The notes below the pieces were generated by a model. It did no database searches, was not told the origin of the DNA, and saw only the letters and a program-made list of their open reading frames with translations. A DNA stretch of 21,153 bases from a virus: positions 1 to 21,153 of the IMG/VR virus record IMGVR_UViG_3300025887_000175, one strand, 5' to 3'. This document shows positions 1,514 through 18,333 of the stretch, in pieces. Positions within the stretch are counted from its first letter, which is position 1, and each line of letters begins with the position of its first letter. A program made the translations under genes and the position numbers.

Positions 1514-4500
1514 ATGGGCCGCTTTGATAATCCTGACTTTGAATTTTCAGGTGACACGAACACACAATCAGACAGCGGTTACGCATCTGTAGACCCCACG
1601 ACAATCACCCGCGACCCCAAGTTCTTGATGGACCTTCGCACCCATTACCGTGACCAAGGTGTCATGGTGGGTGCAGCCTCCGACGAAGACCTGCTCGACA
1701 TGTTCCACCGCGACCGGAACTGGGCAGACTTCAACTCTCTCGCACTGGCCAAAGACACCTATGACGCATACACGGCGACAGGCGAGACCCGCGCCCGTGC
1801 CAAACGTCTGCAAGGTGCATGGCAATCCATGCCGAACTTCTACGAAGAAGGTGGCCGTGGCTTCATTGAGATGGCGAAGGACGTCCTTCCGGCTGTCGCC
1901 CTCGATCCCGTCAACTTCGTCGGTGGCCTCGCCGCCAAACCTGCCGCCCTTGGCGCAGCCGCAACCCGCATTGCCGCAGGCGAAACCGCAGAGCAAGCCG
2001 CCCGTGCGGGCGTGAAGGCTGGTATCAAACGTGCCGCAGGCACAGAAGCCCTCGTCTCAGGTGGCGTCGAAGCAGGCTTTGACGCTGCAACACAGGCCCG
2101 CGACATCAGCCTTGGCCTCCAAGACGAGTATTCCCTCGGTCAAACAGGCGTGGCCGCTGGCGTTGGTGCTACCATCGGTGGCGTGGCAGGTGCGCTTGTT
2201 GGTATTCCCGGCGCTTTCGCTGGCTCACGTCAGGGCCAAGAAGCATATCAAGTCCTCAAGAACCTTGGCGTCACAGACGAGGCCATCGCCAACATCCCTG
2301 TCGGCCAAGTTGACAAGCTGATCAGCAACCCTGACGCACTGGGTGAGTTCGCCACGCAGCCAGAGAACCGCGAAGACCGACGCGGCCTCAACAAAACCGC
2401 AGCAGACATCCCATTTGGCACCGACCTCGAAGGCGAAGCTCCCGCCATTGCCGCCCCGGAGCCAGAAGATGACGGCCTTGAGGCCACAGCAACCCGCTTC
2501 AACACCCTGATCGAAGCGCAGCGCAACTACATCGCACGTCTGCGAGCAGATGGCGCGGACATCACGCAGATCGAGAACTCCGAAGCATACCTTGCCCGCA
2601 TCTCTGTCCTGCAATCCATGCCTGACCGCCTTGCGCGGGAAGCAGGAGACATCAAAGCCCTTGAGGCATCCAACGATCCGATCAAAAGGAAGCGCGGCGA
2701 GGCCCGCCGTCTGGCCTTTGAGCGCGACTTGTCAGATTTCCGCACCCTCATGGGTGACGAGACCACAGGCGAAGAAGAGAACGCCATCATTGGCCGTCTC
2801 CTAGACCGCAAGGAGGAGATCGAGGAAGAAGACGCCGTTGCCAAGAAGCCGAAGAAGGCCAAGGCAACGCCAAAAGCCAAGGGCGCAAAGGCAGCCGCCA
2901 AAGACCAAGCAGAAGAGCAGACCGCAGAGGGGGTGACAGAAACCGGCACCCCTGACGCAGAGGCGGCAGTGGAAGAAGAGCCAGTCCCCCAGACGCCGGA
3001 AGAGATCGCGGAAGAGAAAGCCGAGGAAGCAGACCGCTTTCCTCCCACCAAGAACGCTGGCAAGTTTTCGGCCCCGGCCCAGAAGTACATCGACGACAAC
3101 AAGATCAAGATCAAAGCCTCCGACATCGGCGACGGTGAAGGCTCCACTGGCTTCATCACCAAGGGCCAGCTTGAGAAGTTCTTGAAAGAGAAGCGCGTTG
3201 CCGAGAAGCCAGACGTTGCCGCTCCAACTCCAGTACCTGAGGCCCTGCGCCGTAGCGCCATCCAGAACGGCATCGACTACCGCAAGGTCATGGAGGAAGA
3301 CCCCACACAAAAGCCGCGCACCGCATTGAAGAACGCTCTCAAGAAGAAGCAGGAAGAAGGCGGCCCCATCGACGAATACGTGGCCAACCTGTCCATGCAC
3401 GTAGACGAGTTGATGCAGGAACTTGGTGACGGGGGCATCGACGACGCAGACGAAGCACTCCGGTTGCTCATTGCAGCCGCCAAGGATCGCGGTGAGTTCG
3501 ACCCCAAAGACGTGGAATACTTCTTCACAGACCTGCTCAATGACACCCGCAACCAAGGTCTGCTGGATGACATCATCGAGTTCGACACACCCCTGACCAA
3601 GGCCAAGGAGGCCAACGCCAAGGCCCGCGCAGATGCTATGGTGGCTGCAGACGACAGCGTGTCTCCTGAGTTCGCACTCAAGATGGCTCGCATCGAAGTG
3701 GCATCCGAAGGCAGGGCAGACGCGAAGTCTCCTCGTGGCTCATCCCAGAAGTGGGGAGAAGCGGGCAAGTTCACCACCGCTGGCCGTTCATCTACCGGAC
3801 AAATCCAAGCGTTCTTGCAGCGCGGCACCCCTATCGCCAAGGGGTCAGACTACACAATCTCTGGCGCTCCATACCCCACGAAAGCCACCCTCGACTTTGA
3901 TGAGGCCCTGATCCGGGCAACAGAAAAGCAAGGCCCGGACATCGTCCCTTTCAAAGCATCGGGTAACGAGAAAGTAATCACCAATGGCGGTGGCGAAAAC
4001 AAGGTGCCACGCGGCAGCATCGCCTTCGCAGACGCTGTAACGGGCAAGGCATACGAGAGCCGTGAGATGGCGCTTGCGATGCGGCCAGAAGGTGGAAACA
4101 AGAAGCCGATCAAGGCCGACGAGAAGGGCAAGGGCAAGCCAGCCGCGTCCGTTCAGAAAGCCAAGAGAGCACAGGCCGACAACTCACCCATCCCTGCCGC
4201 CTCCAAGGGCGAAGGTCTGCTCATCATTCGCAAGAAGAGCGACCCGAATGTTGTGCGCATGATGTCTCCCAAGCAGGTGACTGACGGCAAGACAATGCAA
4301 GACCTCATTGGCAGCAAGGGCAAGATTGAAGACTGGGAAGTCAAGTACGCCCCGGCCAACCAGCACACTCACAATGCGTTCAAGCTGCGCAATCTGTTTG
4401 ATCGCCTCGATGCCCCAGATGAAAACCTCACAGGCGACATCATCAAGAAGGCACGTGATACGTCTGCCGAAGCCGACGCCCCACCTCCCGCCATCTACAA

Positions 4501-7500
4501 CGCCGAAACCATGGCTGTCCGCTCAGAGCCTCTCACTGCCGAAGAGGTTGACGCGATCAACGCTGCGACAGCGGGCGCACTATCTCCCGTCAAGGAAGGT
4601 GACAGCCTGACCGTCAAGGATTTAATGATGGTCAGCCACATTACTCACCTCATCGACTGGAAGCGACTTGAGCAAATCGGTGGCGTTCCCGTCGTTGCAC
4701 GTGCGCTCGCAACGCTTTCGGACATTCTGTCCCGCACAATGCCAGACGGCATCATGTTTGAGCAGGGAACCCGCGCTCAAGCTGTTGATATGGTCGAGAC
4801 CATCTTCCAGAAATACGCGCCGGAAGAAGTAAAGCTGGCCAAGGATTTCATCTCCCGCCGTCTTGGCGGCAAGAAGGACGTCGCTCCAAACTTCCGAGAG
4901 AACACCAAGGTCAACAATCTAAACACGGATTATGCAGATGGCATACAGGCCATCAATCTCAATGGAACCGTAAGAAACAGACCCGCATCTTCTGTCCTGT
5001 ATCATGAGGTCGCGCACTGGGCGTACCTGAACATCCTGACAGACGCAGACCGCGCCCAATTCTGGCGGGCCATGGAGAAGTACGTCGGCAATCCGAAGGC
5101 TGTCCAAGACGCGCTGCCGGAATATGACGGCATGCCTGTACCGAAAGAGAAGCCCCTCAAAGGCGGCAACGCAAACCTCAACCCTCAAGAGTTGTTCGCG
5201 CAGCAGTTTGAGATGTGGGTCACCCGCAACGGCGATCCCGCGCTGCAAGACGAAGCGTACTGGAAAAAGATTGGTCGCTACGTCAAGGCGATCTTCGACC
5301 GCTACATGGGCAACGCCAAGATCGACGCAGACCTTGAGCCTCTGTTCTCCAAAATCCTGCCAGACGATCAGGAGGGCCTGTTCCGTGGCGGCGTGGACTA
5401 CGAACCCCAGACCGACGCAGGCAAGCAGTACGCCAAGCGCCTGACTGAGGTGCGCATGGTCCAAGACACCCTCGAAGAAGCAATCTCCAGCGGCTCACAC
5501 GATGGCATCATCAACGGCTACAAAGAGATGGTCTCCATGCTCTTCTCCCTCAAAGGGGACGCGAAGAAGACAGGCACTTTCATGCCAACACGTCGGCTTT
5601 CCATGCTCATGAAGGCCCGCATCGCTGACTTTGATGCCATCATGGGTACAGACTTTGCCAGCTACGATGGGTCAAAGGGCTTCCTGCCTCCGGGCTTCGA
5701 AGACTTCGGCGGCGGCACAACGTCCAGCAACATGCTGGAACGCGCAGAGATGCTGGCTGACTTTTATTACAACGGCTACAACGGCAAGTACAAACCGACA
5801 GATGCGGAAGGCAACGTCGCCATCCCAGCCCAGATCAAAGACTTGGACGCCACATCTCCAAGTGCGCTGCTCGACATCATGGGGGCCGCAATCACGGGCA
5901 AGTACAAGATGGCCGAAGGGACATCCAAGCTCCCGGCTGGTGCCAAGCCACGCAAAGTCTACAAGTCCAAGAAGGTATCCAAGGGCGCAACCACTGCGGC
6001 CAAGAAGGTCGAGCGCTCCAACCGTGCCGCAACGGCAGAGGCGGAAAAGGTCACCAAGGCCAAGAGCAAGCCAACCGCTACCGCCAAGCCTGAGACAGCC
6101 ACCACAGACTACAAAGGCATGGGTCTCATGGCGCTGCGCAAGTCCCTGATGGAGAACCGCGACACAGAAGCGGCACCCCATCTGGCCATGGCTCTGATCC
6201 AAAAAGAGCAGGCCATGAAGATGCCGAAGACGAAGGTCGAGGTGCCTGAGGCAATCAAGACTTCGCCCACCAACGTCGTCAGGGCGGCGTACCTCAAGGC
6301 TCTGTACGAAGGCAACGCCGACGTCCTCAAGCAGACGTCTTACGAACTGCGCCTGCGCTACGGCGAGGACGTCAAACTCAGCGACCCCGTGCAGTCCCAA
6401 ACTCTGGCCGCAATCAGCCAAGAGCGGATGGACAGCATCGGCATCCCGGACAACAACGGCATCCCCGCGTCTGCCCGCGCTACTGTGCGCGAGATGCTCT
6501 CCTACATGACGCACCGCGATCCGGTCATCGAGAACTCCATGCGGACAATGACGTACCGCATGGTCAACCTGATGGGCCGCACCGCCAAGGCAACCGTAGA
6601 GAACGCCAACCTGATGTCTGCGCAAGACGTCGCCCGCCTCTCTGGCCGCCCACAAAGCGTAGTAGGCAGCGCAGTCTTCGCCGACTTCCGCAGCCCAGAG
6701 TTCACTGGCCTTCGCTCAGACCTTCGCCGCATGGCCGTGGGTCTCACCAAGGGCAAGAGCGATCCCCTCGACCTGATGCACGAGATCGGTCACGTCGTCA
6801 TGCGCTCCGGTGCAATGCCTGACAAGGAGATGGAGGCCATCTATGCCGCCTACGATGCGGCAGATGACAAGATCAAGAAGAAGGTCATCGACGCCTACGG
6901 CTCACGCTATGCAGACTTTGATGCACGTGACCGCGAGAACCTTCTTGCGGGTGAGTGGTTCTCCGAAAGCCTTGCCAAGTACATGTCAGAGCGCGTTGGT
7001 CGGGGCGACATCTACGAACAGATCACCAATGGCAGCTTCGAAGACGTGGAACTCCGGGGTCGCTTTGACCGCGCCATCGACCGCCTTGTCGAATACGTGG
7101 CCTATGTGGTGAACGGGCTGATCGGGCGCGACGACATCCGCCAGACCTTCCGCCGCCTGTCCTTCTATGGCGACATGATGGCGACACGCCCCAAAGGGCC
7201 GCTGGCAAACAGCGCTCTCAAGGGACGCGCACTCTCACCCGAACTGGCCCCCTCATATGCCAGTGACGTCTTCCTCAACGCACCCCGTGCGCAGAAGGAT
7301 CGCGCCCGTCGCTACGTCTCCAACGGATACGGCGCTGACGAGAACGGCAACCCCGTGGCCTTCTACCATGGCACCCCCAACGGAGATGCCCTGTCACGCA
7401 ACAAGAACCCACGGGTCAAGATTTCCAGCAACGGCAACTTTGGTCCCGGCTTCTATGTCGCGGCAGACCCGCGCCCCGCCGATCAGGTTTACACGCAAGG

Positions 7501-10500
7501 TACACCTGAGGCGATGATCCGGGCAATGGAGACAGCCAACCCGGATGCTACCCCGGAGCAGGTCGAAGACTTTGTAGACCTCGCGCTCAACATCGGTGAC
7601 ACGCGCAAGCGCATCGCCACCATGCGTCGTGAGTACACCATGCTCTTGGACAGCGTCGGGCAGATGGATGAAATCTCCAGAGAAATCATGGATCAGGAGA
7701 TCGAGGCCCTGCTCTACAAGATGGACCGGATGATCGACACTGAGTATGAGATGCTGGAAGAGGTCAACAAGTTCGGCGTGGACTTCTCCCCTGCTGTCTT
7801 GCCTGTCTACGTCCGCCTCAAGAACCCTGTCGATTTCCGCAAGAACGCCCGCTACGAGCAAGGTGACCCTGCACTGGTCGGCATCTTGGAGCGCCTGATC
7901 ACCGAAGACGGTGTTGAAATCCCATCACCCCCAGAGGTCATGGACGGCAACGAAGCCTACAAGTGGCTGGTCTCCTCTCTGGCCCGCAGCCAAGACTTGA
8001 GCGCAGACCAAGCCCGCGCCCGCCTGAACACAAGCCTCCAGCAAGCTGGCCACGACGGTCTGCTCACCACGCACTCCAACGTGCTGGACCTTGAAGGCAC
8101 GGCAGTCGCAGAGAATGGCCGCACCTACGCAGGAGAGGTCACCTCTTACGACGCTCCCATCCTCTTCTCTGGCAACAACGTCAAAAGCGTAGACGCAGTC
8201 ATGTACGACGAGACGTCACCCCTGCTCTACAACCGGACCCCACGTCTGGTGCCAGCCAACATGAACGCCAGCATCGTCGAGGCCATCGCCGATGGCCGCA
8301 TCAGCAGCATGTCAGAGGTCAGCGCGGCATCCATTGGGGAAGAAGTGGAGCGTGGAGGCGATCCTTCCTTGAGTGGCGCACTCATGTCCATGGCCTCTGG
8401 CCGCAAGCCCACGGCAAAAGAAGTGAGCGCCATGGTGAACCGTGGACCGCGTGGCTGGATCATGTCGCAAGACGAGCAGTTTGCTCAGATGGGAATGAAC
8501 TGGGTCTCTGGCTGGTATCGCAACATCTTCCCGGACGTACAGCAACGTCTGGCCAAGAAGTACATGCCCTTGGAGAAGTCCCTCCGCGCCCTGCCAGACG
8601 CAGACGGCAAGGCCCGCGCATGGGTCCGGTCTGTCACGGTTGGTGTCGGGCAGAAGCAGCCTGACAGCTACACCCGCATCGTCCGCGCACTGCGCCACGG
8701 GGAAGGCTCCCGACAGGAGATGGCCCTCACCGCTCAAGAGCGCTCGGCCTACCAGCAAGTCCGCAACTCATTCAACAATGAGCGCGACGAACTGGTCAAG
8801 TCTGGCATCTTCATGGGCAAGCGGAAGAACTACTTCCCACAGGTCTACAACGTCACAGCCATCGAGAAAGACCCTGAAGGCTACAAGGCCGCAATGGCCA
8901 ACTACTACGTGATCGAGAAAACAAAGATCGGCGAGCCAGTGGACATGCAGAAGGCCATGGATTTTGGTGACTACATGCACTCCCGCATCGTTGGGGATGA
9001 CAGTGATGGCGTCTTCGTGCCGCTGGAAGGTGGCTCCCGCAACCCACAGGCCGACAGCATCGACTTCGCCCGTATGGTCGAACTGGAGAAACACCCCGAA
9101 GCCCTGCGTGAGATCGAGAAGTATCTGGAGAATGACCTTGAGGCCATCCTCGTGAAATACTTCGAAGGCTCATCCAGACGTCTTGCCCACATTGAGAAGA
9201 TGGGCGTCAACAGCCATGGCCTCTACGATTACCTGACGGTCATTGACCAAGGTGCAGAGGGCATTGCCCACCTCCTGTCCACGAACAAGACGTTCACGAA
9301 GGAGTGGTCCAGCCTCGACCTCAAGGCACAGCCGGATACGTTCAACCTCAAAGAAGTCACGGCCATGCCGTTCTCCAAGAACCCCGGCGCGGCTTTGAAG
9401 TTTGCCAACGAGATCATCGCCGAGACGCAGGCCAACGGCACAGCCGCTGCCCGCAAGAAGATGATGGACCTCGCACCTCGAACCTTCCGGGGTGAAATCC
9501 CACTGGCCTATACCCGCCGCGTGGACGCCATCGTTGGCGCTCTGGCAGACTACAAGGGCCAGAAGTCTGGGATGAAGAACGAGGACTTGCAGTGGGTTCA
9601 GGAAGCCATGAACGTGGCCATGCGGAAGCGCATGAAGGGAACCTCCGAAGTCTCGGAGAGAGCCTCTCAGAAAATCCGCGCCTTCAACTCCATCACCCTT
9701 CTCAGCTACACAATGCTCACCTCTCTGGGTGATGTCATGCTGCCGCTTATCCGGTCAGGCAACATGCAGGCGTTCATCAAGGCGCAGCGCAAGTACCACT
9801 CTGATCCGATCTACCGTGAGGCAATCGCCCGTACAGGGGTGGCCATTGAAAGCATAACGCATGAGCGCATGATCCATCTCTTCGGTGGGTCAGACGGCAA
9901 GCTGTCCACGTCTTTCTTCAACGCCACTGGCCTCACACCTTGGACAGACTTCAACCGTCGCATGGCGGGGGCCGTAGGTCTTGAGGCTTTGATCGCCGAG
10001 CAGCAGCGGGCGTTCAGCGCTCACAAAGCAGGGGTGCCGTACAACCAGCAGCCCGCGTCCTTCCGTAAAGCCTACCGCTTCATGAAGCGTTACGGCGTGG
10101 AAGAGTTTGCGCCCGGCGGATCACGTGCAGGCCAGACGTTGTCTGATCTCTCGCTCACCGAGACAGACGACACTGTGCGCAAAGCCGTCATCCACTTTGC
10201 CAATGACGCGGTCTTTGCGCCCAACCCCAACGACATCCCGCTCTGGGCGCAGACGCCATGGGGCGCGGTCATCACGCAACTCAAGACGTTCCCGCTGATG
10301 ATGCACCGCATGACGTCTCACATCGTCAAGGAAGCCAACAAGGGCAACCTCACACCGCTGATCTACCTTGCAACCTTCGGCCCTGCCTCTGGCGCAGTTG
10401 CCTTGGGTGTGAAGGACATTGTCCAGATGCGCGGTGGTGACGAGGGTGACGAGGCTGATTTCCGCAAGCGGAACCTGCTCAAGTCCATGGGCTACGACGA

Positions 10501-10906
10501 GGATGTCCACGGCGACGAGAACGACTTCCTTGGCTGGTACTTGGAGGGCGTCTTGATGATGGGCGGCTTGGGTATCCTTGGCGACATGATGCACAGCGTG
10601 GGAACGCAGGTTGAGAATGGAGCCTACGGCCAAGTCCGTATCCTCTCCACTATCGGCGGCCCATCTGTTGGCCTGATCACAGCGGCCACCACTGTAGGCG
10701 GGGGCGTGAAGGAGATGGTCGTTGACGGCACAGAGAGCAACTACAAGGAGCGCTCTGCTGTCCGTGAGGTGGCCACCCGCATCCCCGGCATTGGCGGCAA
10801 CCGCGCTGCCCGTGAGGGTATCGTCAACTCCCTGTTCCCCAAGGAGGACGAAAGCAACGGCACATTCGGTGAAAGGTTCACTGAAAGTTGGACGAAGAAG
10901 TTCTGA
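1514..10906 (+). CDS. Giant polyvalent virion protein: two zincin-like sites, ADP-ribosyltransferase-like domain, hydrophobic C-terminal third
   Basis: This is a single 3130-codon frame starting at ATG 1514. In order, it contains: an Ala/Gly-rich hydrophobic segment (about residues 212-238); a Lys/Ala/Glu low-complexity linker (about 435-515); a first zincin-like site HEVAH (1164-1168), with E1226 in NPQELFAQ as a likely third zinc ligand; a second Lys/Ala linker (about 1478-1530); a second site HEIGH (1756-1760), with GEWFSE (E1814/E1818) downstream; an ADP-ribosyltransferase-like region (about 1935-2240) with FYHGT (1950-1954), FGPGFY (1976-1981), HDG (2180-2182) and a terminal NNVKS; then helical segments and several hydrophobic stretches (about 2720-2750, 2943-2965, 3008-3065). 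Phage polyvalent proteins, as described by Iyer, Aravind and colleagues, have this kind of architecture and enter the host with the DNA. Protease and ART activity, and packaging in the virion, are inferred. No RNA polymerase motifs of the N4 virion type were seen. Its stop codon overlaps the amidase ribosome-binding site. Confidence 0.85.
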   Translation: MGRFDNPDFEFSGDTNTQSDSGYASVDPTTITRDPKFLMDLRTHYRDQGVMVGAASDEDLLDMFHRDRNWADFNSLALAKDTYDAYTATGETRARAKRLQGAWQSMPNFYEEGGRGFIEMAKDVLPAVALDPVNFVGGLAAKPAALGAAATRIAAGETAEQAARAGVKAGIKRAAGTEALVSGGVEAGFDAATQARDISLGLQDEYSLGQTGVAAGVGATIGGVAGALVGIPGAFAGSRQGQEAYQVLKNLGVTDEAIANIPVGQVDKLISNPDALGEFATQPENREDRRGLNKTAADIPFGTDLEGEAPAIAAPEPEDDGLEATATRFNTLIEAQRNYIARLRADGADITQIENSEAYLARISVLQSMPDRLAREAGDIKALEASNDPIKRKRGEARRLAFERDLSDFRTLMGDETTGEEENAIIGRLLDRKEEIEEEDAVAKKPKKAKATPKAKGAKAAAKDQAEEQTAEGVTETGTPDAEAAVEEEPVPQTPEEIAEEKAEEADRFPPTKNAGKFSAPAQKYIDDNKIKIKASDIGDGEGSTGFITKGQLEKFLKEKRVAEKPDVAAPTPVPEALRRSAIQNGIDYRKVMEEDPTQKPRTALKNALKKKQEEGGPIDEYVANLSMHVDELMQELGDGGIDDADEALRLLIAAAKDRGEFDPKDVEYFFTDLLNDTRNQGLLDDIIEFDTPLTKAKEANAKARADAMVAADDSVSPEFALKMARIEVASEGRADAKSPRGSSQKWGEAGKFTTAGRSSTGQIQAFLQRGTPIAKGSDYTISGAPYPTKATLDFDEALIRATEKQGPDIVPFKASGNEKVITNGGGENKVPRGSIAFADAVTGKAYESREMALAMRPEGGNKKPIKADEKGKGKPAASVQKAKRAQADNSPIPAASKGEGLLIIRKKSDPNVVRMMSPKQVTDGKTMQDLIGSKGKIEDWEVKYAPANQHTHNAFKLRNLFDRLDAPDENLTGDIIKKARDTSAEADAPPPAIYNAETMAVRSEPLTAEEVDAINAATAGALSPVKEGDSLTVKDLMMVSHITHLIDWKRLEQIGGVPVVARALATLSDILSRTMPDGIMFEQGTRAQAVDMVETIFQKYAPEEVKLAKDFISRRLGGKKDVAPNFRENTKVNNLNTDYADGIQAINLNGTVRNRPASSVLYHEVAHWAYLNILTDADRAQFWRAMEKYVGNPKAVQDALPEYDGMPVPKEKPLKGGNANLNPQELFAQQFEMWVTRNGDPALQDEAYWKKIGRYVKAIFDRYMGNAKIDADLEPLFSKILPDDQEGLFRGGVDYEPQTDAGKQYAKRLTEVRMVQDTLEEAISSGSHDGIINGYKEMVSMLFSLKGDAKKTGTFMPTRRLSMLMKARIADFDAIMGTDFASYDGSKGFLPPGFEDFGGGTTSSNMLERAEMLADFYYNGYNGKYKPTDAEGNVAIPAQIKDLDATSPSALLDIMGAAITGKYKMAEGTSKLPAGAKPRKVYKSKKVSKGATTAAKKVERSNRAATAEAEKVTKAKSKPTATAKPETATTDYKGMGLMALRKSLMENRDTEAAPHLAMALIQKEQAMKMPKTKVEVPEAIKTSPTNVVRAAYLKALYEGNADVLKQTSYELRLRYGEDVKLSDPVQSQTLAAISQERMDSIGIPDNNGIPASARATVREMLSYMTHRDPVIENSMRTMTYRMVNLMGRTAKATVENANLMSAQDVARLSGRPQSVVGSAVFADFRSPEFTGLRSDLRRMAVGLTKGKSDPLDLMHEIGHVVMRSGAMPDKEMEAIYAAYDAADDKIKKKVIDAYGSRYADFDARDRENLLAGEWFSESLAKYMSERVGRGDIYEQITNGSFEDVELRGRFDRAIDRLVEYVAYVVNGLIGRDDIRQTFRRLSFYGDMMATRPKGPLANSALKGRALSPELAPSYASDVFLNAPRAQKDRARRYVSNGYGADENGNPVAFYHGTPNGDALSRNKNPRVKISSNGNFGPGFYVAADPRPADQVYTQGTPEAMIRAMETANPDATPEQVEDFVDLALNIGDTRKRIATMRREYTMLLDSVGQMDEISREIMDQEIEALLYKMDRMIDTEYEMLEEVNKFGVDFSPAVLPVYVRLKNPVDFRKNARYEQGDPALVGILERLITEDGVEIPSPPEVMDGNEAYKWLVSSLARSQDLSADQARARLNTSLQQAGHDGLLTTHSNVLDLEGTAVAENGRTYAGEVTSYDAPILFSGNNVKSVDAVMYDETSPLLYNRTPRLVPANMNASIVEAIADGRISSMSEVSAASIGEEVERGGDPSLSGALMSMASGRKPTAKEVSAMVNRGPRGWIMSQDEQFAQMGMNWVSGWYRNIFPDVQQRLAKKYMPLEKSLRALPDADGKARAWVRSVTVGVGQKQPDSYTRIVRALRHGEGSRQEMALTAQERSAYQQVRNSFNNERDELVKSGIFMGKRKNYFPQVYNVTAIEKDPEGYKAAMANYYVIEKTKIGEPVDMQKAMDFGDYMHSRIVGDDSDGVFVPLEGGSRNPQADSIDFARMVELEKHPEALREIEKYLENDLEAILVKYFEGSSRRLAHIEKMGVNSHGLYDYLTVIDQGAEGIAHLLSTNKTFTKEWSSLDLKAQPDTFNLKEVTAMPFSKNPGAALKFANEIIAETQANGTAAARKKMMDLAPRTFRGEIPLAYTRRVDAIVGALADYKGQKSGMKNEDLQWVQEAMNVAMRKRMKGTSEVSERASQKIRAFNSITLLSYTMLTSLGDVMLPLIRSGNMQAFIKAQRKYHSDPIYREAIARTGVAIESITHERMIHLFGGSDGKLSTSFFNATGLTPWTDFNRRMAGAVGLEALIAEQQRAFSAHKAGVPYNQQPASFRKAYRFMKRYGVEEFAPGGSRAGQTLSDLSLTETDDTVRKAVIHFANDAVFAPNPNDIPLWAQTPWGAVITQLKTFPLMMHRMTSHIVKEANKGNLTPLIYLATFGPASGAVALGVKDIVQMRGGDEGDEADFRKRNLLKSMGYDEDVHGDENDFLGWYLEGVLMMGGLGILGDMMHSVGTQVENGAYGQVRILSTIGGPSVGLITAATTVGGGVKEMVVDGTESNYKERSAVREVATRIPGIGGNRAAREGIVNSLFPKEDESNGTFGERFTESWTKKF

Positions 10907-10917
10907 GGAGGACAGGC

Positions 10918-11490
10918 ATGGCATACCGGCCAGACAACCAAGTGAAATGGATCGTGGTCCACTACAGCGCAACTCCGGTTGAGCGCGTCACGTCTTACGA
11001 TGCCATCGAGAAGGGCCACATTCAGCGTGGCTTCAAGGAGATCGGCTATCACGCATACGGCCCGCGCACCGGAGGCTTCATGCCGGGGCGTGACCTATCC
11101 CAGCCGGGGCGGTTCGAAGTCGGCGCTCACTCCCAAGGAGAAAACTCCCGCAGCGTGGGCTACTGCTACGAAGGCGGCGTCTCCATCCACGACATGAACA
11201 CTGGCTTCGACACCCGCACTCCCGCACAGATCGACGCCATGATCACTTGGATTGACATGATGCTGGAGCGTTTCGGTGGCGACGGCCTAGACCCGACGAA
11301 GGGTCCGATTGTCATCGGCCACCGTGACATGCCCGGAGCGGCGACACAGTGTCCGGGCTTCGACGTCACAGCATGGTGGCGCACAGTCGTTGAGGATCGC
11401 AAGTACAATGCCCCTCCACCCTCTGGCCCCTCATGGCTCACGGCGCTTGTCGATGCCCTGTCTGGCCTGTTCTCAAAGCGGAGGAAGTGA
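10918..11490 (+). CDS. N-acetylmuramoyl-L-alanine amidase, T7-lysozyme-like endolysin
   Basis: The 190-residue protein matches the Amidase_2/PGRP fold of T7 lysozyme, a zinc enzyme that cuts the bond between N-acetylmuramic acid and L-alanine in peptidoglycan. Visible ligands are H15 (VVHYSAT), H135 (GHRDMPG) and C145 (QCPGFD). Y44 (IGYHAY) matches the catalytic tyrosine. The lysine that lies two residues before the zinc cysteine in T7 lysozyme is T143 here. The C-terminus adds a Pro-rich linker and a basic tail (SKRRK). No signal peptide is visible, so export through the neighbouring holin is expected. ATG 10918 was chosen because GAGGAGGA (10905-10912) precedes it at good spacing. An in-frame TTG at 10888 lies inside the giant gene and lacks a site. 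First gene of the lysis cassette. Confidence 0.92.
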   Translation: MAYRPDNQVKWIVVHYSATPVERVTSYDAIEKGHIQRGFKEIGYHAYGPRTGGFMPGRDLSQPGRFEVGAHSQGENSRSVGYCYEGGVSIHDMNTGFDTRTPAQIDAMITWIDMMLERFGGDGLDPTKGPIVIGHRDMPGAATQCPGFDVTAWWRTVVEDRKYNAPPPSGPSWLTALVDALSGLFSKRRK

Positions 11491-11895: not shown

Positions 11896-12049
11896 AGCCG
11901 AGGTCTGTCGTCAGATTGGAAAAGCACTCCCGACACGGTCACGCTCAGACACTGCGCAGACAGCCAGTGAGATACAGACGCTCTACGCCACCTTCTCACT
12001 GGCATGCCCAGACTTCGAAGAGTTTATTCCCCGAAGTAGCGCAGGCTAA
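11813..12049 (+). CDS. Outer-membrane lipoprotein spanin subunit (Rz1-like), overlapping the i-spanin
   Basis: The 78-residue protein starts with a short basic and hydrophobic signal (LTKYVMLLSAMSMTGC) and a lipobox that places the lipidated cysteine at C17. Two more cysteines follow (C32 in EVCRQI and one in LACPDF). A small lipoprotein starting inside the i-spanin gene in a different frame is the standard o-spanin arrangement. It overlaps the i-spanin by 83 nt and extends 154 nt past it. GTG 11813 has AGGA (11801-11804) eight bases upstream; GTG 11828 and ATG 11831 are alternatives in the same frame. Its last 26 bases overlap the end of the convergent dCMP deaminase gene. It is less proline-rich than lambda Rz1. 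Confidence 0.8.
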   Translation: MLTKYVMLLSAMSMTGCVSTMTRGGASEAEVCRQIGKALPTRSRSDTAQTASEIQTLYATFSLACPDFEEFIPRSSAG

Positions 12050-12470
12050 CACCCGCCTCGTTCATCATGTCCCGACTTGCGGCGAAGCTATCACGGAACC
12101 TTTCAGCCAAGCCATCCTTCGGGCGCAGAGTGATCACCTGATCCACGCCGGATTGTATCAACAGGCCAGCGCAGTTTGCGCATGGGTGGTGTGTCACGTA
12201 GGCCGCGCAGCCATCCAGAGACTGCACCGCGTTCAGGATCGCATTGGCCTCCGCATGCTGAACCATCAAGTACTTCTGCTCACGGTCCTTGTATCTGTCA
12301 TGTCCGTCTAGGACGCCACGCGGGAAGCCGTTGTACCCCATGCCCACGACCTGACGCTTGGGGTTCACCAAGACGCAGCCGACTTTGGTGCTGGGGTCTT
12401 TCGACCAAGCGGCGACGTGGAAGGCAAGCGCCACAAATCTGCTGTCCCATTTACCAGTGAGGGCGGTCAT
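12024..12470 (-). CDS. Deoxycytidylate (dCMP) deaminase
   Basis: The 148-residue protein is a zinc-dependent cytidine/deoxycytidylate deaminase, which converts dCMP to dUMP, the substrate for thymidylate synthesis. The zinc site is clear: H72-A-E74 (QHAEANAI) gives one ligand and the proton-shuttling glutamate, and C97-x2-C100 (HHPCANC) gives the other two. The N-terminal SKDPSTKVGCVLV and GYNGFPRG are also typical of the phage and eukaryotic dCMP deaminase branch. Its length is normal for phage members. Its start overlaps the end of the DUF5664 gene by 20 nt, and it is the last gene of the leftward operon. Its 3' end overlaps the o-spanin gene on the other strand. Confidence 0.93.
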   Translation of the reverse strand: MTALTGKWDSRFVALAFHVAAWSKDPSTKVGCVLVNPKRQVVGMGYNGFPRGVLDGHDRYKDREQKYLMVQHAEANAILNAVQSLDGCAAYVTHHPCANCAGLLIQSGVDQVITLRPKDGLAERFRDSFAASRDMMNEAGVSLRYFGE

Positions 12471-12816
12471 CCTTGCCTACCTCCCGCTGCTCATACGTCA
12501 CGAGAAACGCCATGCAGCAAGACGCATGCCAAAGGTGAGACTTGCCTGTTTCAGGGTCATGGCTCTCACCACTCCACCACGCCATCATGTGCCGCATCAT
12601 GGCCCCGTACACACGTGACCAGTTCATCCCCTTCTCCCAGTTCCGGTCACCGTATTTCTCAGCGCCAAAGGTGAGGATGTCCCCAATGGCCAAGACGATC
12701 TCTGGCGGCACAAGGTCGAGGCGGTTCTTGCCGCCGTCGAACTTCTTCCCTTCCGGCCAGACGTCTTGATGCGGCTGATCGTGAGGGTCAGCATATCGGT
12801 CTTTGCAGTCAGTCAT
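12451..12816 (-). CDS. DUF5664-family protein, putative dATP/dGTP diphosphohydrolase
   Basis: The 121-residue protein has the pattern that I associate with DUF5664: KKFDGGKNRLDLVPP, then LTFGAEKYGDRNW, WSRVYGAMMRHMMAWW and DPETGKSHLWHASCCMAF. The conserved His, Glu, Asp and Trp residues suggest an all-helical hydrolase of the MazG-like kind, and family members are often labelled dATP/dGTP diphosphohydrolase (N-terminal domain). The enzyme activity is not established here. Lying between a coiled-coil gene and dCMP deaminase, it fits a role in nucleotide-pool control. Its start overlaps the preceding stop (ATGA). A related activity in some phages supports 2-aminoadenine DNA, but no PurZ-type gene is present in this window. 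Confidence 0.75.
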   Translation of the reverse strand: MTDCKDRYADPHDQPHQDVWPEGKKFDGGKNRLDLVPPEIVLAIGDILTFGAEKYGDRNWEKGMNWSRVYGAMMRHMMAWWSGESHDPETGKSHLWHASCCMAFLVTYEQREVGKDDRPHW

Positions 12817-13097
12817 TCCATCTCCAATTCAGCTTTGAACCTCAAGAGCGCAACCTCTGCCTCTGCCTGCAACACTCCGAGTTCTACCTCGCTATCATCG
12901 CAGTCCTTCTGCACGTATCTCAGCTTGTCTCTTGCCCTCACCAGTTCCTCTGTCTCACCCTCTGCCTTGAGGACGTCTATGCGACCCCCGATAGAGTACA
13001 GGCTCCGCTTCAAAGTACCCAACCTGACCTCCTCTCTCTTTGCGTACAGGACCGCTTCTATGTATTTGAGTTCCAGTTCATATGTCTTGGGCGTCAT
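12813..13097 (-). CDS. Small coiled-coil protein of unknown function
   Basis: The 94-residue product is almost wholly charged and heptad-like, with repeated Glu, Lys, Leu and Val. It reads as two antiparallel helical segments split near the Gly-Gly at about residue 37 (SIGGRID). It has no cysteines that could bind metal except a single C near residue 66, no membrane segment and no catalytic motif. The start shares one base with the exonuclease stop (TGATG) and has a strong GGGAGG upstream. The stop overlaps the DUF5664 start. Tight coupling to the nuclease gene suggests a partner or accessory role in recombination, but this is only context. I do not recognise a family. Confidence 0.7.
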   Translation of the reverse strand: MTPKTYELELKYIEAVLYAKREEVRLGTLKRSLYSIGGRIDVLKAEGETEELVRARDKLRYVQKDCDDSEVELGVLQAEAEVALLRFKAELEME

Positions 13098-13918
13098 CAG
13101 ACCTCCCTTTCTGCTGGTTTGAATTGTTGCCAGTCATCGCAGGGGTGGTCCGGTATTGGACGCCCCTTCATGTTGCAGTACCAACCACCGTCCTCAGTGG
13201 GCGAAGAGTGGGTACATGTCTGGCACAGCGCGGGAACCTCAACGTGGCCCCAGCATGCGTCAGACTTGAAACAGAACCGACACCGCCAGTCTGTTTCATC
13301 CTTTGCGATCTTGATCACCTCGCCCGACAGGGCCAGCCCTACCTTCTGGCGGATGAAGCCAAACTCAAACTGGTCAAACTCCACGATCTCGCAGTGGTAG
13401 GCAGACGTGTTCTTATTGTAGGCAATGAAGAGAGACGACTGCATACGCGCCATCCCCATCATCATCTGAACCTGCCCGAAATACTGAGGGTGTGATTGCT
13501 TTACGCCGAGGTTCACAAACTTGGTGAACGAGGCATCGTTCATCGACTTGATCTCAAGGATCATGAGTTCGTCTTCGATCTCAATCATCCCGTCTGTGTG
13601 GCACACCACATGGCCACCAAAGTCAGAGTAGGTGTATTGCTTGCGCGTGAGAGCATCGACCTCCCAGACAGCGTACCCTGCCTTTTTCAAGTCAGCGACA
13701 ACCATGTCCTCAATCTTGTGACCGAGGCCAAAGATGCGTTTCAGCTTTGCGTCTGGCTCCTTGTTTGGAAAGCCACGCAGGTTGAAGGCGATAGACGCCT
13801 GACACTGATTGCCGACGATAGAGGCACCAATGTAGCGACGCGGTTTGTCGCGCCTGTCTGCTTCGTATGCGTCATCAATTTTGCGGAGAACATCTTCCGC
13901 CTTCAACGATCTTGTCAT
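13097..13918 (-). CDS. Cas4/AddB-like PD-(D/E)XK nuclease with predicted Fe-S cluster and an extra Cys4 module
   Basis: The 273-residue protein carries RecB-type nuclease motifs: GHKIED (66-71), HTDG with D109, and LEIKS with E122 and K124, followed by a Gln-containing helix (QYFGQVQ, 145-151). C39 lies early in the domain, and C213-x2-C216-x5-C222 lies after it. That is the one-plus-three cysteine arrangement and spacing of the 4Fe-4S site in Cas4 and AddB nucleases. A second set, C232, C235, C248 and C260, follows and could form a zinc ribbon. The likely role is resection of DNA ends to give single strands for the neighbouring Sak4-like ATPase and SSB. ATG 13918 was chosen because it overlaps the upstream TGA (ATGA); a GTG at 13954 is an upstream alternative. 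No cas1 or cas2 and no CRISPR repeats are in the window. Confidence 0.85.
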   Translation of the reverse strand: MTRSLKAEDVLRKIDDAYEADRRDKPRRYIGASIVGNQCQASIAFNLRGFPNKEPDAKLKRIFGLGHKIEDMVVADLKKAGYAVWEVDALTRKQYTYSDFGGHVVCHTDGMIEIEDELMILEIKSMNDASFTKFVNLGVKQSHPQYFGQVQMMMGMARMQSSLFIAYNKNTSAYHCEIVEFDQFEFGFIRQKVGLALSGEVIKIAKDETDWRCRFCFKSDACWGHVEVPALCQTCTHSSPTEDGGWYCNMKGRPIPDHPCDDWQQFKPAEREV

Positions 13919-14262
13919 GTTGGATGCGCCATCCCTTCCTCGGTGATCTGCCACGTGAAGATGGTGCAGGACTTGGGCCTATCACCCTCCACAAAACCAA
14001 GACGCCGCAACACAGTGAGGTAACATTTTACCTCATTCACTTGCGACTTCATGGCCAGCGCCACGTCTTCATTGGTACGGTATCGGCCATCCTTCATAAC
14101 AGAGAGCGCAAGTCTTGCGCCCTCTGACAGGATGTCCCTGTCCTGCACAACCTTCTCCACCTTCACAGGTCGGTTGGCAGGGTAGGGTGCGCCAAGCACC
14201 CTAACATTTTCATCGGCTGCCATAGCCTTCATGGCTGCAATGTTGTCGCTTGTCATACGCAT
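13915..14262 (-). CDS. Winged-helix-like DNA-binding protein
   Basis: The 115-residue product has a loosely structured N-terminal half. The C-terminal half reads as a winged helix: LSVMKDGRYRTNEDVALAM, then VNEVKCYLTVLRRLGFVE, then a basic wing (GDRPKSC) and FTWQITEEG. This is the helix-turn-helix-wing order found in MarR/ArsR-like and phage replication-accessory proteins. Whether it regulates transcription or helps recombination proteins load is not shown. ATG 14262 was chosen because GGAGG sits seven bases upstream, within the end of the SSB gene; an upstream TTG at 14280 has no such site. The stop overlaps the nuclease start. Its place between the SSB and the nuclease suggests a DNA-metabolism role. 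Confidence 0.65.
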   Translation of the reverse strand: MRMTSDNIAAMKAMAADENVRVLGAPYPANRPVKVEKVVQDRDILSEGARLALSVMKDGRYRTNEDVALAMKSQVNEVKCYLTVLRRLGFVEGDRPKSCTIFTWQITEEGMAHPT

Positions 14263-14276
14263 AACATTGCCTCCAA

Positions 14277-14756
14277 TCAAAACGGGATTTCATCATCCAG
14301 ATCAACAGACCTCTTAGCCTGCGGCTTGGGCGCGGGGGCGTCCCCGTCGATGATGAAGCGTTTGACTTCCTCGCGCTGCACCGTCTGGCCGTTCTTCTGA
14401 TACGGCTTGCCGAGGTCCACATAGATGCGGCACGTGAGGCCAATCATGCTCTCAATATCCCCCGGCTTGTCTGGGTTCGGGTGGTTGCCCGACACCAAGA
14501 AGGACTTGAGTTGACGCAAGCCAATCTCCTGCGCTTGGGGCACAGAGGTATGCACCACATTGAAGCCAGCGGCGATAGAGCCTGCGCCACCATTGTCCTT
14601 GAGGCTCACGACAACGCGCTTATCTTTGCCATTGGCGGCAGTCTTGATCTCTGCCTTGGTACAGGTGACCTCATACTCACCCTTGGTCAGCGGTGCGTAA
14701 TCATCCGCCTCAACACTGCTCAGGTCGAGGTTCGCAAATCCATTCCATCCACTCAT
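14277..14756 (-). CDS. Single-stranded DNA-binding protein (DUF669-like) with SSB-type acidic tail
   Basis: The 159-residue protein has a beta-rich body (GEYEVTCTKAEIKT, KRVVVSLKDNG, LTCRIYVDLGK) and a Pro/Ala/Lys linker. It ends in a tail, DLDDEIPF, that closely matches the DDDIPF tip with which bacterial SSBs recruit partner proteins. The body resembles phage DUF669/SSB-like proteins more than Escherichia coli SSB. It should coat single-stranded DNA made by the nearby nuclease and present it to the Sak4-like ATPase, whose gene is immediately upstream and overlaps by ATGA. AAAGGAG precedes its start. Pairing of Sak4 with an SSB is known in other phages, which supports the assignment. DNA binding itself is inferred. 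Confidence 0.82.
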   Translation of the reverse strand: MSGWNGFANLDLSSVEADDYAPLTKGEYEVTCTKAEIKTAANGKDKRVVVSLKDNGGAGSIAAGFNVVHTSVPQAQEIGLRQLKSFLVSGNHPNPDKPGDIESMIGLTCRIYVDLGKPYQKNGQTVQREEVKRFIIDGDAPAPKPQAKRSVDLDDEIPF

Positions 14757-15604
14757 TTGTCGTCTCCTTTATCAGACACTACTGCGTCAAGTTCTTCGAT
14801 TGATTTTGCCGGTTTGTCGGCAGGCTTCATACCACCACGTAGGGCATCAAACTCTTCGTCTGACATGGACATGAGGTGGAGAAGTTCGGTGATGTCGTCT
14901 GTCCGCTCAAAGGCTTTCAGGCGACGTCTTGGATCACGGACCTTGCCGTGCCATCCAGACACTTCGTCTGTGATCACGTAGCGTCTAACCTTGGGCATAC
15001 CCTTCTCGTCCTTGTCGGTGACGCGAACACCACACAACACATGGTCGAAGAGGGCAGGCACTTGCTTGGATACCGCATTGCCTTTGACGAAGGGCCAGAA
15101 GTGGGTGACGTCATTGGCATCCTTCTCTTCCTTGGCCAGACACGTCACGTAGACATGCAGGGGAAGATCGCGGACCCACTTGAGAGCGCCGATCATGATG
15201 CGGTTGTAGTCACCCCACATTGCAAAGCCGTTACCCGACCCTGCGTGTTCCTTCTCAAGGTGTTCGATCAGCCGCTCAGACAGTTCTGTCAGGCTGTCGA
15301 TGGCCAGCCACTTGTATCCCATCTTGGCAAAGTCAGGGGACGAGAGCATGCGGATGATGCCCTTGAAGGAATACACGTCACCTTCTGGATCGTGGTTGCC
15401 ATCCCAAGACGTGAACGGAATGTAATCAATATCAACATCCTCGATGGATTTCAGGCCCGCCTCACCAGAGATAATCAATCCCTTGCCATAACGGTCCTGA
15501 TACTTACGGCATTGATAAGTCTTACCAAATCCGTGGTGACTGTAGAGCAGCACCTTACTTGGGCCATCCTTGGCCAAGTCCGACGTGCGCAGCGGCTTAA
15601 ACAT
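14753..15604 (-). CDS. Sak4-like RecA-fold ATPase (single-strand annealing / recombinase family)
   Basis: This 283-residue P-loop protein has a Walker A motif at residues 22-29 (SHHGFGKT), E48 in ISGEAG as a possible catalytic acid, and a Walker B motif ending at D103 (YKWLAIDSLTEL). This layout matches phage AAA_24/Sak4 proteins, small RAD51-core-like recombinases that work with a phage SSB. The acidic C-terminus (DELDAVVS-like, ending KGDDK) is probably disordered. Its start lies within the last 8 bases of the preceding gene and its stop overlaps the SSB start, so all three are probably translated together. It is not a replicative helicase, because a separate PrimPol-helicase is encoded at 16378. 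The exact family should be confirmed by profile search. Confidence 0.83.
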   Translation of the reverse strand: MFKPLRTSDLAKDGPSKVLLYSHHGFGKTYQCRKYQDRYGKGLIISGEAGLKSIEDVDIDYIPFTSWDGNHDPEGDVYSFKGIIRMLSSPDFAKMGYKWLAIDSLTELSERLIEHLEKEHAGSGNGFAMWGDYNRIMIGALKWVRDLPLHVYVTCLAKEEKDANDVTHFWPFVKGNAVSKQVPALFDHVLCGVRVTDKDEKGMPKVRRYVITDEVSGWHGKVRDPRRRLKAFERTDDITELLHLMSMSDEEFDALRGGMKPADKPAKSIEELDAVVSDKGDDK

Positions 15605-16076
15605 TGTCTACCTCGATTTTTGCTGGAGCATGTTTGCGTGTCAGGGCGGGCTTCCATTTGCTTTGCTCTGACGTGGGTAGTGCGGCAAACTTCTTGCGAT
15701 CTACCCGTGTTGATTTCTTGATGAAGGATGGGAGTGTTTCATCACCCTCTCCACCCAAGATGCTGTCGAGTGTGTCCTGATCCCACAACCAGCGATCACG
15801 GTACGTGACTGTCATCTGGACGGTATCGGTCAGGGGATACAACACTGGCTCTTCATCTGGATCACCGCCCGGAAGATACCGCTCAATCTCCGCAACAGTT
15901 GCGCTCTCAAGGGCCTTCATTTCTTCGAGGCGATCACGTGTTTCGGATAGCGTGATGGCCAAGAAAGCCAGCTTCTTCCACTTCTCATCGTCCACGTTCA
16001 GGGGTGTGTCTTCTACATGTGGCGGCTCTGGTTCCACCTCTCTGGCCTTGTGATCAAGGCTGTCCCAGTCACTCAT
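15597..16076 (-). CDS. First gene of the leftward recombination operon, unknown function
   Basis: The 159-residue protein has an acidic, Pro-rich N-terminus (EVEPEPPHVED). It continues with a helical segment (KKLAFLAITLSETRDRLEEMKALESATVAEIERYL), a beta-like stretch (VQMTVTYRDRWLWD) and a basic C-terminal third ending KIEVDNV. I recognise no family or catalytic motif. ATG 16076 was preferred over longer versions starting up to 16190, because GGAGGA (about 16083-16088) sits just upstream and a longer form would run into the opposite gene's leader. It is the promoter-proximal gene in front of the Sak4-like ATPase and overlaps it by 8 nt. A role as an accessory factor for recombination is plausible from position only. 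Confidence 0.7.
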   Translation of the reverse strand: MSDWDSLDHKAREVEPEPPHVEDTPLNVDDEKWKKLAFLAITLSETRDRLEEMKALESATVAEIERYLPGGDPDEEPVLYPLTDTVQMTVTYRDRWLWDQDTLDSILGGEGDETLPSFIKKSTRVDRKKFAALPTSEQSKWKPALTRKHAPAKIEVDNV

Positions 16077-16177
16077 TGATTGTCCTCCGGTGATTAAGGT
16101 GTCTTGCTGTGACATCGAAAGGTGTATAATAGATATGACACCTAGACAAGAGTGTTTTTCAAAAAAGGAGAGAACAC
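16077..16177 (+). promoter_or_regulatory. Divergent promoter-operator region between the leftward operon and the HTH gene
   Basis: A perfect TATAAT lies at 16125-16130. A poor -35 candidate, TTGCTG, lies at 16104-16109 with a short 15-nt spacer. The box sits inside the palindrome AGGTGT (16120-16125)-N12-ACACCT (16138-16143). A further AGGTGTC lies at 16097-16103 and forms an imperfect palindrome with GACATC (16111-16116). This is what an operator for a Cro-like repressor looks like. The complementary strand is also AT-rich here (TATTAT), so the leftward operon may start from an overlapping promoter. AAGGAG (16165-16170) is the ribosome site of the HTH gene. Confidence 0.65.
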
Positions 16178-16381
16178 ATGCCGACCACAATGAAAGTCAG
16201 CCAGTTGATTGACGACCTTGGGGGTGCCGCCGAGGTGGCGCGTATTGCGGGTGTCGCCCGCACCGCACCTTACCGATGGATCAAGCACAACTACATCGGC
16301 TCTCCGATCCTTGAGCGTATCAAGGCAGCGCGTCCCAACATTGATCTGGACTACTACTTCAAGGAGGGAGAAGCAGAGTGA
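16178..16381 (+). CDS. Cro/YdaS-like helix-turn-helix regulator
   Basis: The 67-residue protein is dominated by one HTH: VSQLIDDLGGAAEVARIAGV, then ARTAPYRWIKHNYIGSPILERI as the recognition-helix region. The form, with Ala-Glu-Val-Ala in the first helix and a Trp in the recognition helix, is typical of Cro and YdaS antiterminator/repressor proteins. It follows a divergent region with palindromic half-sites and probably binds there, controlling its own operon and the leftward recombination operon. The start has AAGGAG eight bases upstream. Its TGA overlaps the GTG start of the primase-helicase, so the two are translated together. It could act as repressor or activator; the sequence does not say which. 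Confidence 0.8.
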   Translation: MPTTMKVSQLIDDLGGAAEVARIAGVARTAPYRWIKHNYIGSPILERIKAARPNIDLDYYFKEGEAE

Positions 16382-18333
16382 AGGTATCCGAAAAGATAGA
16401 CATTGCAATCGAATACCTTGAGCGAGGGTGGTCACTCATACCGATCAGCCCCGACACAAAGCGGCCTCTGATCAAATGGCTGGCCTATCAGGATCGCCAC
16501 CCGACCGAAGATGAAATCACCTCGTGGGTTGAGGCGTGGCCTGACTGTTCCTTTGCGATTGTCACGGGGGAAATATCAGGCTGCGTTGTGGTGGACTGCG
16601 ATAATGAAGATGCAATCCACGCCGCGTATGACGCGGACATGCGCAGCCCGATTAGGGTAAAGACCAAGCGCGGTGTTCACCTATACTTCGAACACCCAAA
16701 GGATGGCACTCGACGTGGACCCCGTGCTGGCAACAACAGCAAGGGGGAGGACTGGCCGAAGATCAACGGCCTCGACTTCCGTGGTGACGGATCATACGCA
16801 CTCTTGCCCCCATCCTCTGGCTATCACTGGGACTACCCGACCCACACACTTGACTGGGACGACATGCCAATGTGGAAGGACTGGACCCCCAGCCTTGATG
16901 CTCACATGGCAAGCAAGTCGAAGGACGACGGGTTCTCCTTCGGTGACCTTGACCTGTCCGGCATCGAGGCCATGGGGGAGTTCGTCTCCGAGTGGGACAA
17001 CACCGCCCGCTACGTCTTGGAGAAGTACCCCACCACCCGCAGGCTACCCACTGGCATGAGCAATGGCCGCAACGAGCGCGTCATGCGGTGGATCAGCGAG
17101 TGCATCATGGATGGGTACTTCGGCGATGAACTGCGCCTCAAGGGCTACTCGTTCATGAATGAGTTCTACGTGGACCCGTTAGAGCCAGCCGAGTATGAGG
17201 CCACGGTGCGGAGTATGGAGGCTGCCGAACGGCGCAACCATCCAGAGCGCTTCACGGACACGGGCGAGTACATCCCACGCGAGGCAACACACGTCACCAC
17301 GACGTCCGAGCACCCCGTAGCGGAGAAGCCGCCCGCCAAAACCAAGCGCCTGATCCAGATGAAGGATGCCGAAGACCTCATGCGTGAGGCGGACGGGCGT
17401 TCCTATCTGATCGAACCATGGCTACCACCAGCCACCATCGTTCAGGTGCACGGATACTCAGGACACGGGAAGTCCATGTTCCTCCAGCATGCGCTGGGCG
17501 CACTCACCGCTGGCCGCAAATACTTTGGCCCCTTTGAGATCGGCAGGGCGGCACGGGTACTCTATCTCGACTACGAGATGGGCATGTCCACCATCGCCAG
17601 ACGATTGATGGAACTGCGCACAGCACACGGAGACACAGGCGACAGGCTGCAAATCTGGACACCCTTCGTTGAGGGTAAGGACATGAGCCTGCTGCAACCC
17701 GAAGGTCTGGCCGCATTGCAGGAGTGGGTGATCAACGTGAAGCCAGATGTTGTGGTGATCGACACCATCCGCAGTGCGTTTCCGGGTCTCAAGGAGAACG
17801 ACGCTCAAGAATGGTCTCGCGTTAACCAGCTTGCCACACGTCTGCGCAACTCTGGCTATGCAGTGATCATGGTCCACCACTCCAACAAGCCCGGAGAGAA
17901 TGGGAAGTCAGGGCGTGAGGCTGGATCATCGAACCAGCTTACCGTCTTGGAGACGCAGATCAAAGTCACGCAGGTATTCCCAGACGAAGAGACGGCGCGA
18001 GAGAACGCTGGCATCTGGGATGAAGACTACACCAAGCCTGTCTGGGATGCGCTCCAACGCAAATGCCCAGCGGATTACAAACTCTACATGGTCAATGAGA
18101 TACGCTACGGCAAAGTCCGTGAGTGGTCAGACTTGCATGATCGTCTGCAATGGGTGGGGTATGCAGCCAACACCATCACAGACGAACGTACAATCGTGTC
18201 GTCACGATCCACAAAGCAGAAGGCCAAGGACATGGCCATCGACGGGTGGGGCATGGAGGCTATAGCTGATCGGCTCTCTCGGCCATTGTCTTTGGTGAGA
18301 GACTGGCTAGAGGTGCACCCACCCGTATCTTAG
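16378..18333 (+). CDS. Bifunctional PrimPol primase/polymerase - RecA-like helicase
   Basis: The 651-residue protein has two catalytic halves. The N-terminal AEP/PrimPol domain shows VVVDCD with D73 and D75 (metal-binding pair), GVHLYF with H101 (nucleotide-binding motif) and LDFRGDGSYALLPPS (132-146). After a linker, the RepA/AAA_25-type helicase domain shows Walker A GYSGHGKS (359-366), Walker B VVVIDT with D462, and a sensor-like VHHSN (H500-H501). A short C-terminal HTH-like segment (MEAIADRLSRPLSLVRDWL) follows. It would unwind duplex DNA and lay down primers for phage replication. The GTG start overlaps the HTH gene stop and has AAGGAGGG (16361-16368) upstream. No DNA polymerase gene lies in the window. 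Confidence 0.92.
   Translation: MKVSEKIDIAIEYLERGWSLIPISPDTKRPLIKWLAYQDRHPTEDEITSWVEAWPDCSFAIVTGEISGCVVVDCDNEDAIHAAYDADMRSPIRVKTKRGVHLYFEHPKDGTRRGPRAGNNSKGEDWPKINGLDFRGDGSYALLPPSSGYHWDYPTHTLDWDDMPMWKDWTPSLDAHMASKSKDDGFSFGDLDLSGIEAMGEFVSEWDNTARYVLEKYPTTRRLPTGMSNGRNERVMRWISECIMDGYFGDELRLKGYSFMNEFYVDPLEPAEYEATVRSMEAAERRNHPERFTDTGEYIPREATHVTTTSEHPVAEKPPAKTKRLIQMKDAEDLMREADGRSYLIEPWLPPATIVQVHGYSGHGKSMFLQHALGALTAGRKYFGPFEIGRAARVLYLDYEMGMSTIARRLMELRTAHGDTGDRLQIWTPFVEGKDMSLLQPEGLAALQEWVINVKPDVVVIDTIRSAFPGLKENDAQEWSRVNQLATRLRNSGYAVIMVHHSNKPGENGKSGREAGSSNQLTVLETQIKVTQVFPDEETARENAGIWDEDYTKPVWDALQRKCPADYKLYMVNEIRYGKVREWSDLHDRLQWVGYAANTITDERTIVSSRSTKQKAKDMAIDGWGMEAIADRLSRPLSLVRDWLEVHPPVS

Follow-up and report, generated by a model that had tools for sequence, protein, structure and literature searches.

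The question raised by this locus is whether one very long reading frame encodes one protein, and what a phage protein that seems to join protease-like sites, an ADP-ribosyltransferase (ART)-like region and hydrophobic stretches would do. The DNA analysed, here called the window, is the whole 21,153-base IMG/VR virus record IMGVR_UViG_3300025887_000175 and is probably a fragment of a genome. We consider it probable that the giant protein is a gp16-type ejection protein of a CRP-810-type phage that carries enzyme cargo, i.e., a polyvalent protein. The initial annotation had already proposed a polyvalent phage protein with mixed enzyme domains, and this holds for the ART and the first zincin site and depends mainly on the motif for the second. 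The features discussed below are collected in Table 1.

Table 1. Coordinates of the giant ORF, its parts and the gene upstream of it in the window
Feature	Residues	Position	Strand	Basis
Upstream gene, cut by contig end		3..1442	+	weak match to CRP-810 gp37 (E 1e-4)
Giant ORF, 3130 aa, from ATG		1514..10906	+	uninterrupted reading frame
Conserved N-terminal block with Gly/Ala-rich hydrophobic 213-231	20-260	1571..2293	+	conservation, PHROG matches in some members
Low-complexity Lys/Ala/Glu linker	~421-510	2774..3043	+	composition
Conserved module, no fold assigned	~720-960	3671..4393	+	conservation; mixed helix and strand in model
Zincin 1 region (putative)	~1085-1310	4766..5443	+	HExxH 1164-1168 (5003-5017), Glu1226 (5189-5191)
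Low-complexity linker	~1461-1550	5894..6163	+	composition
Zincin 2 region (provisional)	~1600-1900	6311..7213	+	HExxH 1756-1760 (6779-6793), Glu1814 (6953-6955)
ART domain	~1925-2235	7286..8218	+	ART-PolyVal match, H-Y-D triad, model
ART triad	H1952, Y1981, D2181	7367-7369, 7454-7456, 8054-8056	+	alignment
Long helical insert in ART	~1999-2090	7508-7783	+	model
C-terminal chassis, counterpart of CRP-810 gp34	2293-3130	8390..10903	+	virion structural / gp16-type PHROG matches

The frame runs from its ATG through 3130 codons without a stop, as initially annotated, and the chance value for a stop-free run of this length at 59% GC is ~6e-47. In the nearest cultured relative of the window phage, Roseobacter phage CRP-810 (OR671924), the homology extends over the full length (31-50% identity) and the catalytic residues and genome position are the same, but the protein is split by two frame breaks over three ORFs, where gp36 corresponds to window residues 24-382, gp35 to 363-2298 and gp34 to 2293-3130. 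This annotation and one IMG/VR locus (L030), in which the protein is spread over three frames, would suit the idea that the long ORF is an artefact of assembly or gene fusion and that three genes are the true state. Such an artefact is extremely improbable, since a single ORF of 3128-3582 aa was present in all 36 IMG/VR loci holding both gene ends, and the counterpart in the Poseidonocella genome, a prophage in an isolate genome, is one ORF of ~3,270 aa. The breaks in CRP-810 consist of a 31-nt tandem duplication that shifts the frame at the gp35/gp34 junction (L004 24020-24150, OR671924, reverse strand) and of a one-base frame change at the gp36/gp35 junction, within continuous homology. The duplication accounts for one of the breaks without a programmed frameshift. 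Because the 36 loci and the Poseidonocella genome each carry one frame, a fusion artefact was rejected for the family as a whole; one ORF is the family state and CRP-810 the exception, via mutation or sequencing error, and the gp35/gp34 split annotated for the isolate has probably arisen secondarily or through an error. The parts of the CRP-810 paper available to us name gp36 internal virion protein D and hold no discussion of gp35, gp34 or the ART and zincin domains (PMC11288001).

A scan of IMG/VR with the C-terminal profile yielded 245 relatives, 80 of which were kept, and later scans with other profiles yielded 258 and 353. The longest member, L014 (1811-12556; 3582 aa), is without the ART and zincin 2, and its middle part has no domain assignment. 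The best conserved part of the family is the C-terminal 838 residues, where identity to the window protein is 32-59% per 60-residue bin; the zincin and ART regions and the N-terminus come next, and identity drops to 16-18% in the linker at residues 421-540. The domain order, not recognised in the initial annotation, is not special to this contig but common to the whole CRP-810-type phage family. Both low-complexity linkers were found (Table 1); the hydrophobic C-terminal stretches are borne out only in part, the best of them (2948-2966) reaching a Kyte-Doolittle mean of 1.43, and the strongest stretch is N-terminal (213-231, mean 1.87). Residues 520-1100 and 2260-2700 had been left without a domain, which still applies to 520-1060 and no longer to 2293-3130, where virion-protein PHROGs match. 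Sequence search against the PDB gave no relative for any block of the giant protein, and Foldseek against the PDB gave no match below E 0.001. PDB matches to designed helical proteins look like a composition effect, and an NCBIfam BepA match was set aside as far below its cut-off and off the motifs.

The ART-like region noted at the outset proved well supported. Pfam ART-PolyVal (PF18760) matches residues 1942-1997 with E 3.1e-5 in the whole protein and E 1e-6 with the segment alone (30.0 bits vs the gathering cut-off of 31.2), and it was found at E<=0.01 in 28 of 39 family members (best 2.6e-10). The HYD-type active site of ARTs places H on strand 1, Y on strand 2 and D on strand 5. This triad is conserved in 75 of 77 members (65/66, plus 10/11 added later), the exceptions being L014, without the whole domain, and a prophage (L090) without the ART histidine. 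Matches of the AlphaFold model of residues 1600-2300 (mean pLDDT 80) include viral models labelled large polyvalent protein (top E 8e-18) and ART-PolyVal, one of the latter having 225 residues and a target TM of 0.54. Among solved structures the top VIA-align row was the cyanophage A4 pre-ejectosome chain 9k3a_B (Z 9.8, 3.5 A, 168 residues aligned at model positions 320-628), and Z alone is not decisive because the rows below it, at Z 9 or less, span nothing but the long helical insert. By sequence, 9k3a chain B is Anabaena phage A-4L gp27 (L093 20116-25269). Its structure was determined within the virion, where it belongs to the pre-ejectosome, and its residues ~1424-1600 form an unannotated ART-like region in which H, Y and D motifs follow each other in the expected order. 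Unlike the window protein, gp27 has 1,717 residues, no HExxH and no Pfam ART match.

The two HExxH sites of the initial annotation were recovered at residues 1164 and 1756, with 0.024 expected from composition and a probability of ~3e-4 for two or more. At site 1, all 57 members that have an intact HExxH also have Glu1226, and the 10 members without HExxH all carry K, Q or R in its place; this covariation is as expected for a metal ligand and points to Glu1226 as the third one. The site 1 model (mean pLDDT 70) has a moderate match among solved structures: it aligns with five entries of anthrax lethal factor at the zincin protease domain (144-163 residues aligned, 12-14% identity, rmsd 3.9-4.0 in four and 8.9 in 1j7n), with Z values of 6.2-6.5 that lie below the alignment tool's caution line of Z 8 and indicate fold resemblance only. 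The site 2 region was modelled as all helical, without the zincin sheet, and its profile shows weak similarity to that of site 1 (E 0.003, probability 11%); its assignment as a zincin is provisional and rests mainly on the motif. Structure models, suggested earlier as the check on both folds, were favourable for the ART, gave a low-Z resemblance for site 1 and showed no zincin sheet at site 2.

Among 67 members, HExxH is present at both sites in 30, at site 1 only in 27, at site 2 only in 10 and at neither in 0. The two zincins are therefore not equivalent, as one or the other is often degenerate across the family. On a tree built from the C-terminal block of 58 members, four inferred losses suffice, one of them at site 1 and three at site 2. 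Because they are so few, the pattern of one degenerate zincin and never both is only suggestive; reciprocal loss as a statistical proof was rejected. The loss of one zincin active site in 37 of the 67 members, together with the two ART exceptions L014 and L090, would also fit a purely structural ejection protein, in which the zincin and ART folds are non-catalytic relics that shape the internal core. We regard this as quite unlikely, since relics would not keep catalytic residues so strictly: the ART triad persists in members so divergent that regional identity falls to ~25-30%, and no member has lost HExxH at both sites.

The link to ejection comes from the terminal blocks. Full-length hmmscan failed to pick up the C-terminal family, whereas the C-terminal segment alone did. 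With this segment, PHROG 684 (virion structural protein) was matched in six of seven members tested (best E 5e-25), PHROG 6958 in all seven and PHROG 342 (T7 gp16 family) in three (best E 1.7e-16); the window member's own block matched PHROG 684 (E 8e-14) and gave no match to PHROG 342. As yardsticks, T7 gp16 matched PHROG 342 over its full length, T7 gp14 matched PHROG 805 and N4 vRNAP matched PHROG 2206. Direct profile comparison of the block with T7 gp16 stayed at noise level, and that with N4 vRNAP gave only noise. The relation of the C-terminal block to gp16 is one through PHROG family profiles, not through direct comparison. The N-terminal block, the counterpart of CRP-810 gp36, matched PHROG 37402 in 14 of 29 members, PHROG 342 in four and PHROG 2206 in two (best 5.8e-5); it forms another conserved block, with a weak relation to virion proteins. 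L003 shares 98% identity with the window, and there the second gene upstream of the giant gene weakly matches PHROG 805 (E 0.0076); it is a possible gp14-like gene, and the order would then equal T7 14-15-16. The gene directly upstream in the window gave no family match and is by position a candidate counterpart of T7 gp15.

Like T7 gp16, the window protein would be the large last gene product of a 14-15-16-like cluster; it has hydrophobic parts at both ends, and the family's C-terminal block falls into the same profile families, but it is more than twice as long and carries the enzyme cargo in its centre. No lytic transglycosylase domain was matched in the window protein by Pfam or PHROGs. 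Among gp16-type proteins the N-terminal transglycosylase is present in T7 and absent in P22-like phages. N4 vRNAP, whose profile is weakly matched by the N-terminal block of some members, is a packaged protein of ~3,500 residues and bears an HExxH-containing C1 domain before a large helical C-terminal part (PMC12633501). The window protein has none of the vRNAP Pfam domains, and N4 vRNAP itself matches four such models.

From gene order and the profile relation, the giant protein is most likely packaged in the virion and ejected with the DNA. Following the plan of T7 gp16 and N4 vRNAP, it would be packaged in the head, and after ejection its N- and C-terminal blocks would be set in the cell envelope and help the genome through; T7 gp16 has comparable membrane and cytoplasmic parts (PMC8954989). 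Between these blocks would lie the cargo of two zincin-type metallopeptidase sites and the H-Y-D ART. Once ejected, the ART most likely modifies host proteins by ADP-ribosylation early in infection, in parallel with the ejected T4 Alt (PMC5512222), and a zincin most likely frees the cargo by cleaving the chain, either inside the head or once the protein has been ejected. Disarming of the host, which the initial annotation cited for polyvalent proteins in general, is an inference here. The zincin could instead be an effector whose substrate is a host protein rather than the own chain of the phage, which is possible though not our preferred role: host proteins are the targets of other conflict-system zincins (PMC5512222), and the site 1 fold resembles a zincin that acts on other proteins. 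The low-complexity linkers between the modules suit cutting of the own chain, and P1 DdrB is known to be processed (PMC5512222), neither of which is decisive; N4 vRNAP, with its HExxH region, is packaged uncut (PMC5512222), which counts against self-cleavage. We consider own-chain cutting only moderately more likely than cutting of host proteins. That the two sites back each other up, so that at least one active protease is always kept to cut the chain and free the ART, is a more doubtful extension; if true, the enzyme cargo delivered by the phage would dismantle itself.

An N-acetylmuramoyl-L-alanine amidase gene (10918-11490) lies just downstream of the giant ORF, where CRP-810 has a glycoside hydrolase 108 as lysis gene; its ATG at 10918 behind GAGGAGG is a likelier start than the mechanical TTG at 10888, which overlaps the giant ORF. 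The replication genes at 12024-18333 are the same set as in CRP-810: the minus strand encodes a Cas4-like exonuclease, a Sak4-like annealing protein and possibly an SSB-like protein, and the plus strand a PrimPol-AAA25 protein. A lysozyme/endolysin-type protein (20687-21151; PHROG 90, 17230, 28672) is truncated at the contig end.

Polyvalent proteins of phages are already known to fuse an MPTase to an ART (PMC5512222). As in the window protein, a zincin-type MPTase and an HYD-type ART are combined there in one large, late, head-region polypeptide, and the ART-bearing vRNAP of Roseovarius Plymouth podovirus 1 is an example of such proteins (PMC5512222). The window protein has no RNA polymerase module and has a gp16-type C-terminal block, and the window family has two zincin sites, one of them often degenerate. 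Aeromonas phage phiA008 gene 66 (L005 7084-13236) has a C-terminal block homologous to that of the window protein (E 1.7e-25), with one HELGH site, an N-terminal staphylococcal-nuclease domain and no ART. The family-wide combination of an ART and two zincins on a gp16-type chassis appears new, as no description was found in the literature that our search covered.

Our results connect polyvalent effector domains with an ejection chassis of the gp16 type, in a marine phage family that is abundant. The nuclease on a similar chassis in phiA008 suggests that the cargo is exchangeable, and confirmation of the ART-like part in the cyanophage A4 pre-ejectosome protein would place such a domain inside a virion. 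With CRP-810 the family has a cultured member, so the proposed packaging, cutting and delivery can be tested on a real host.
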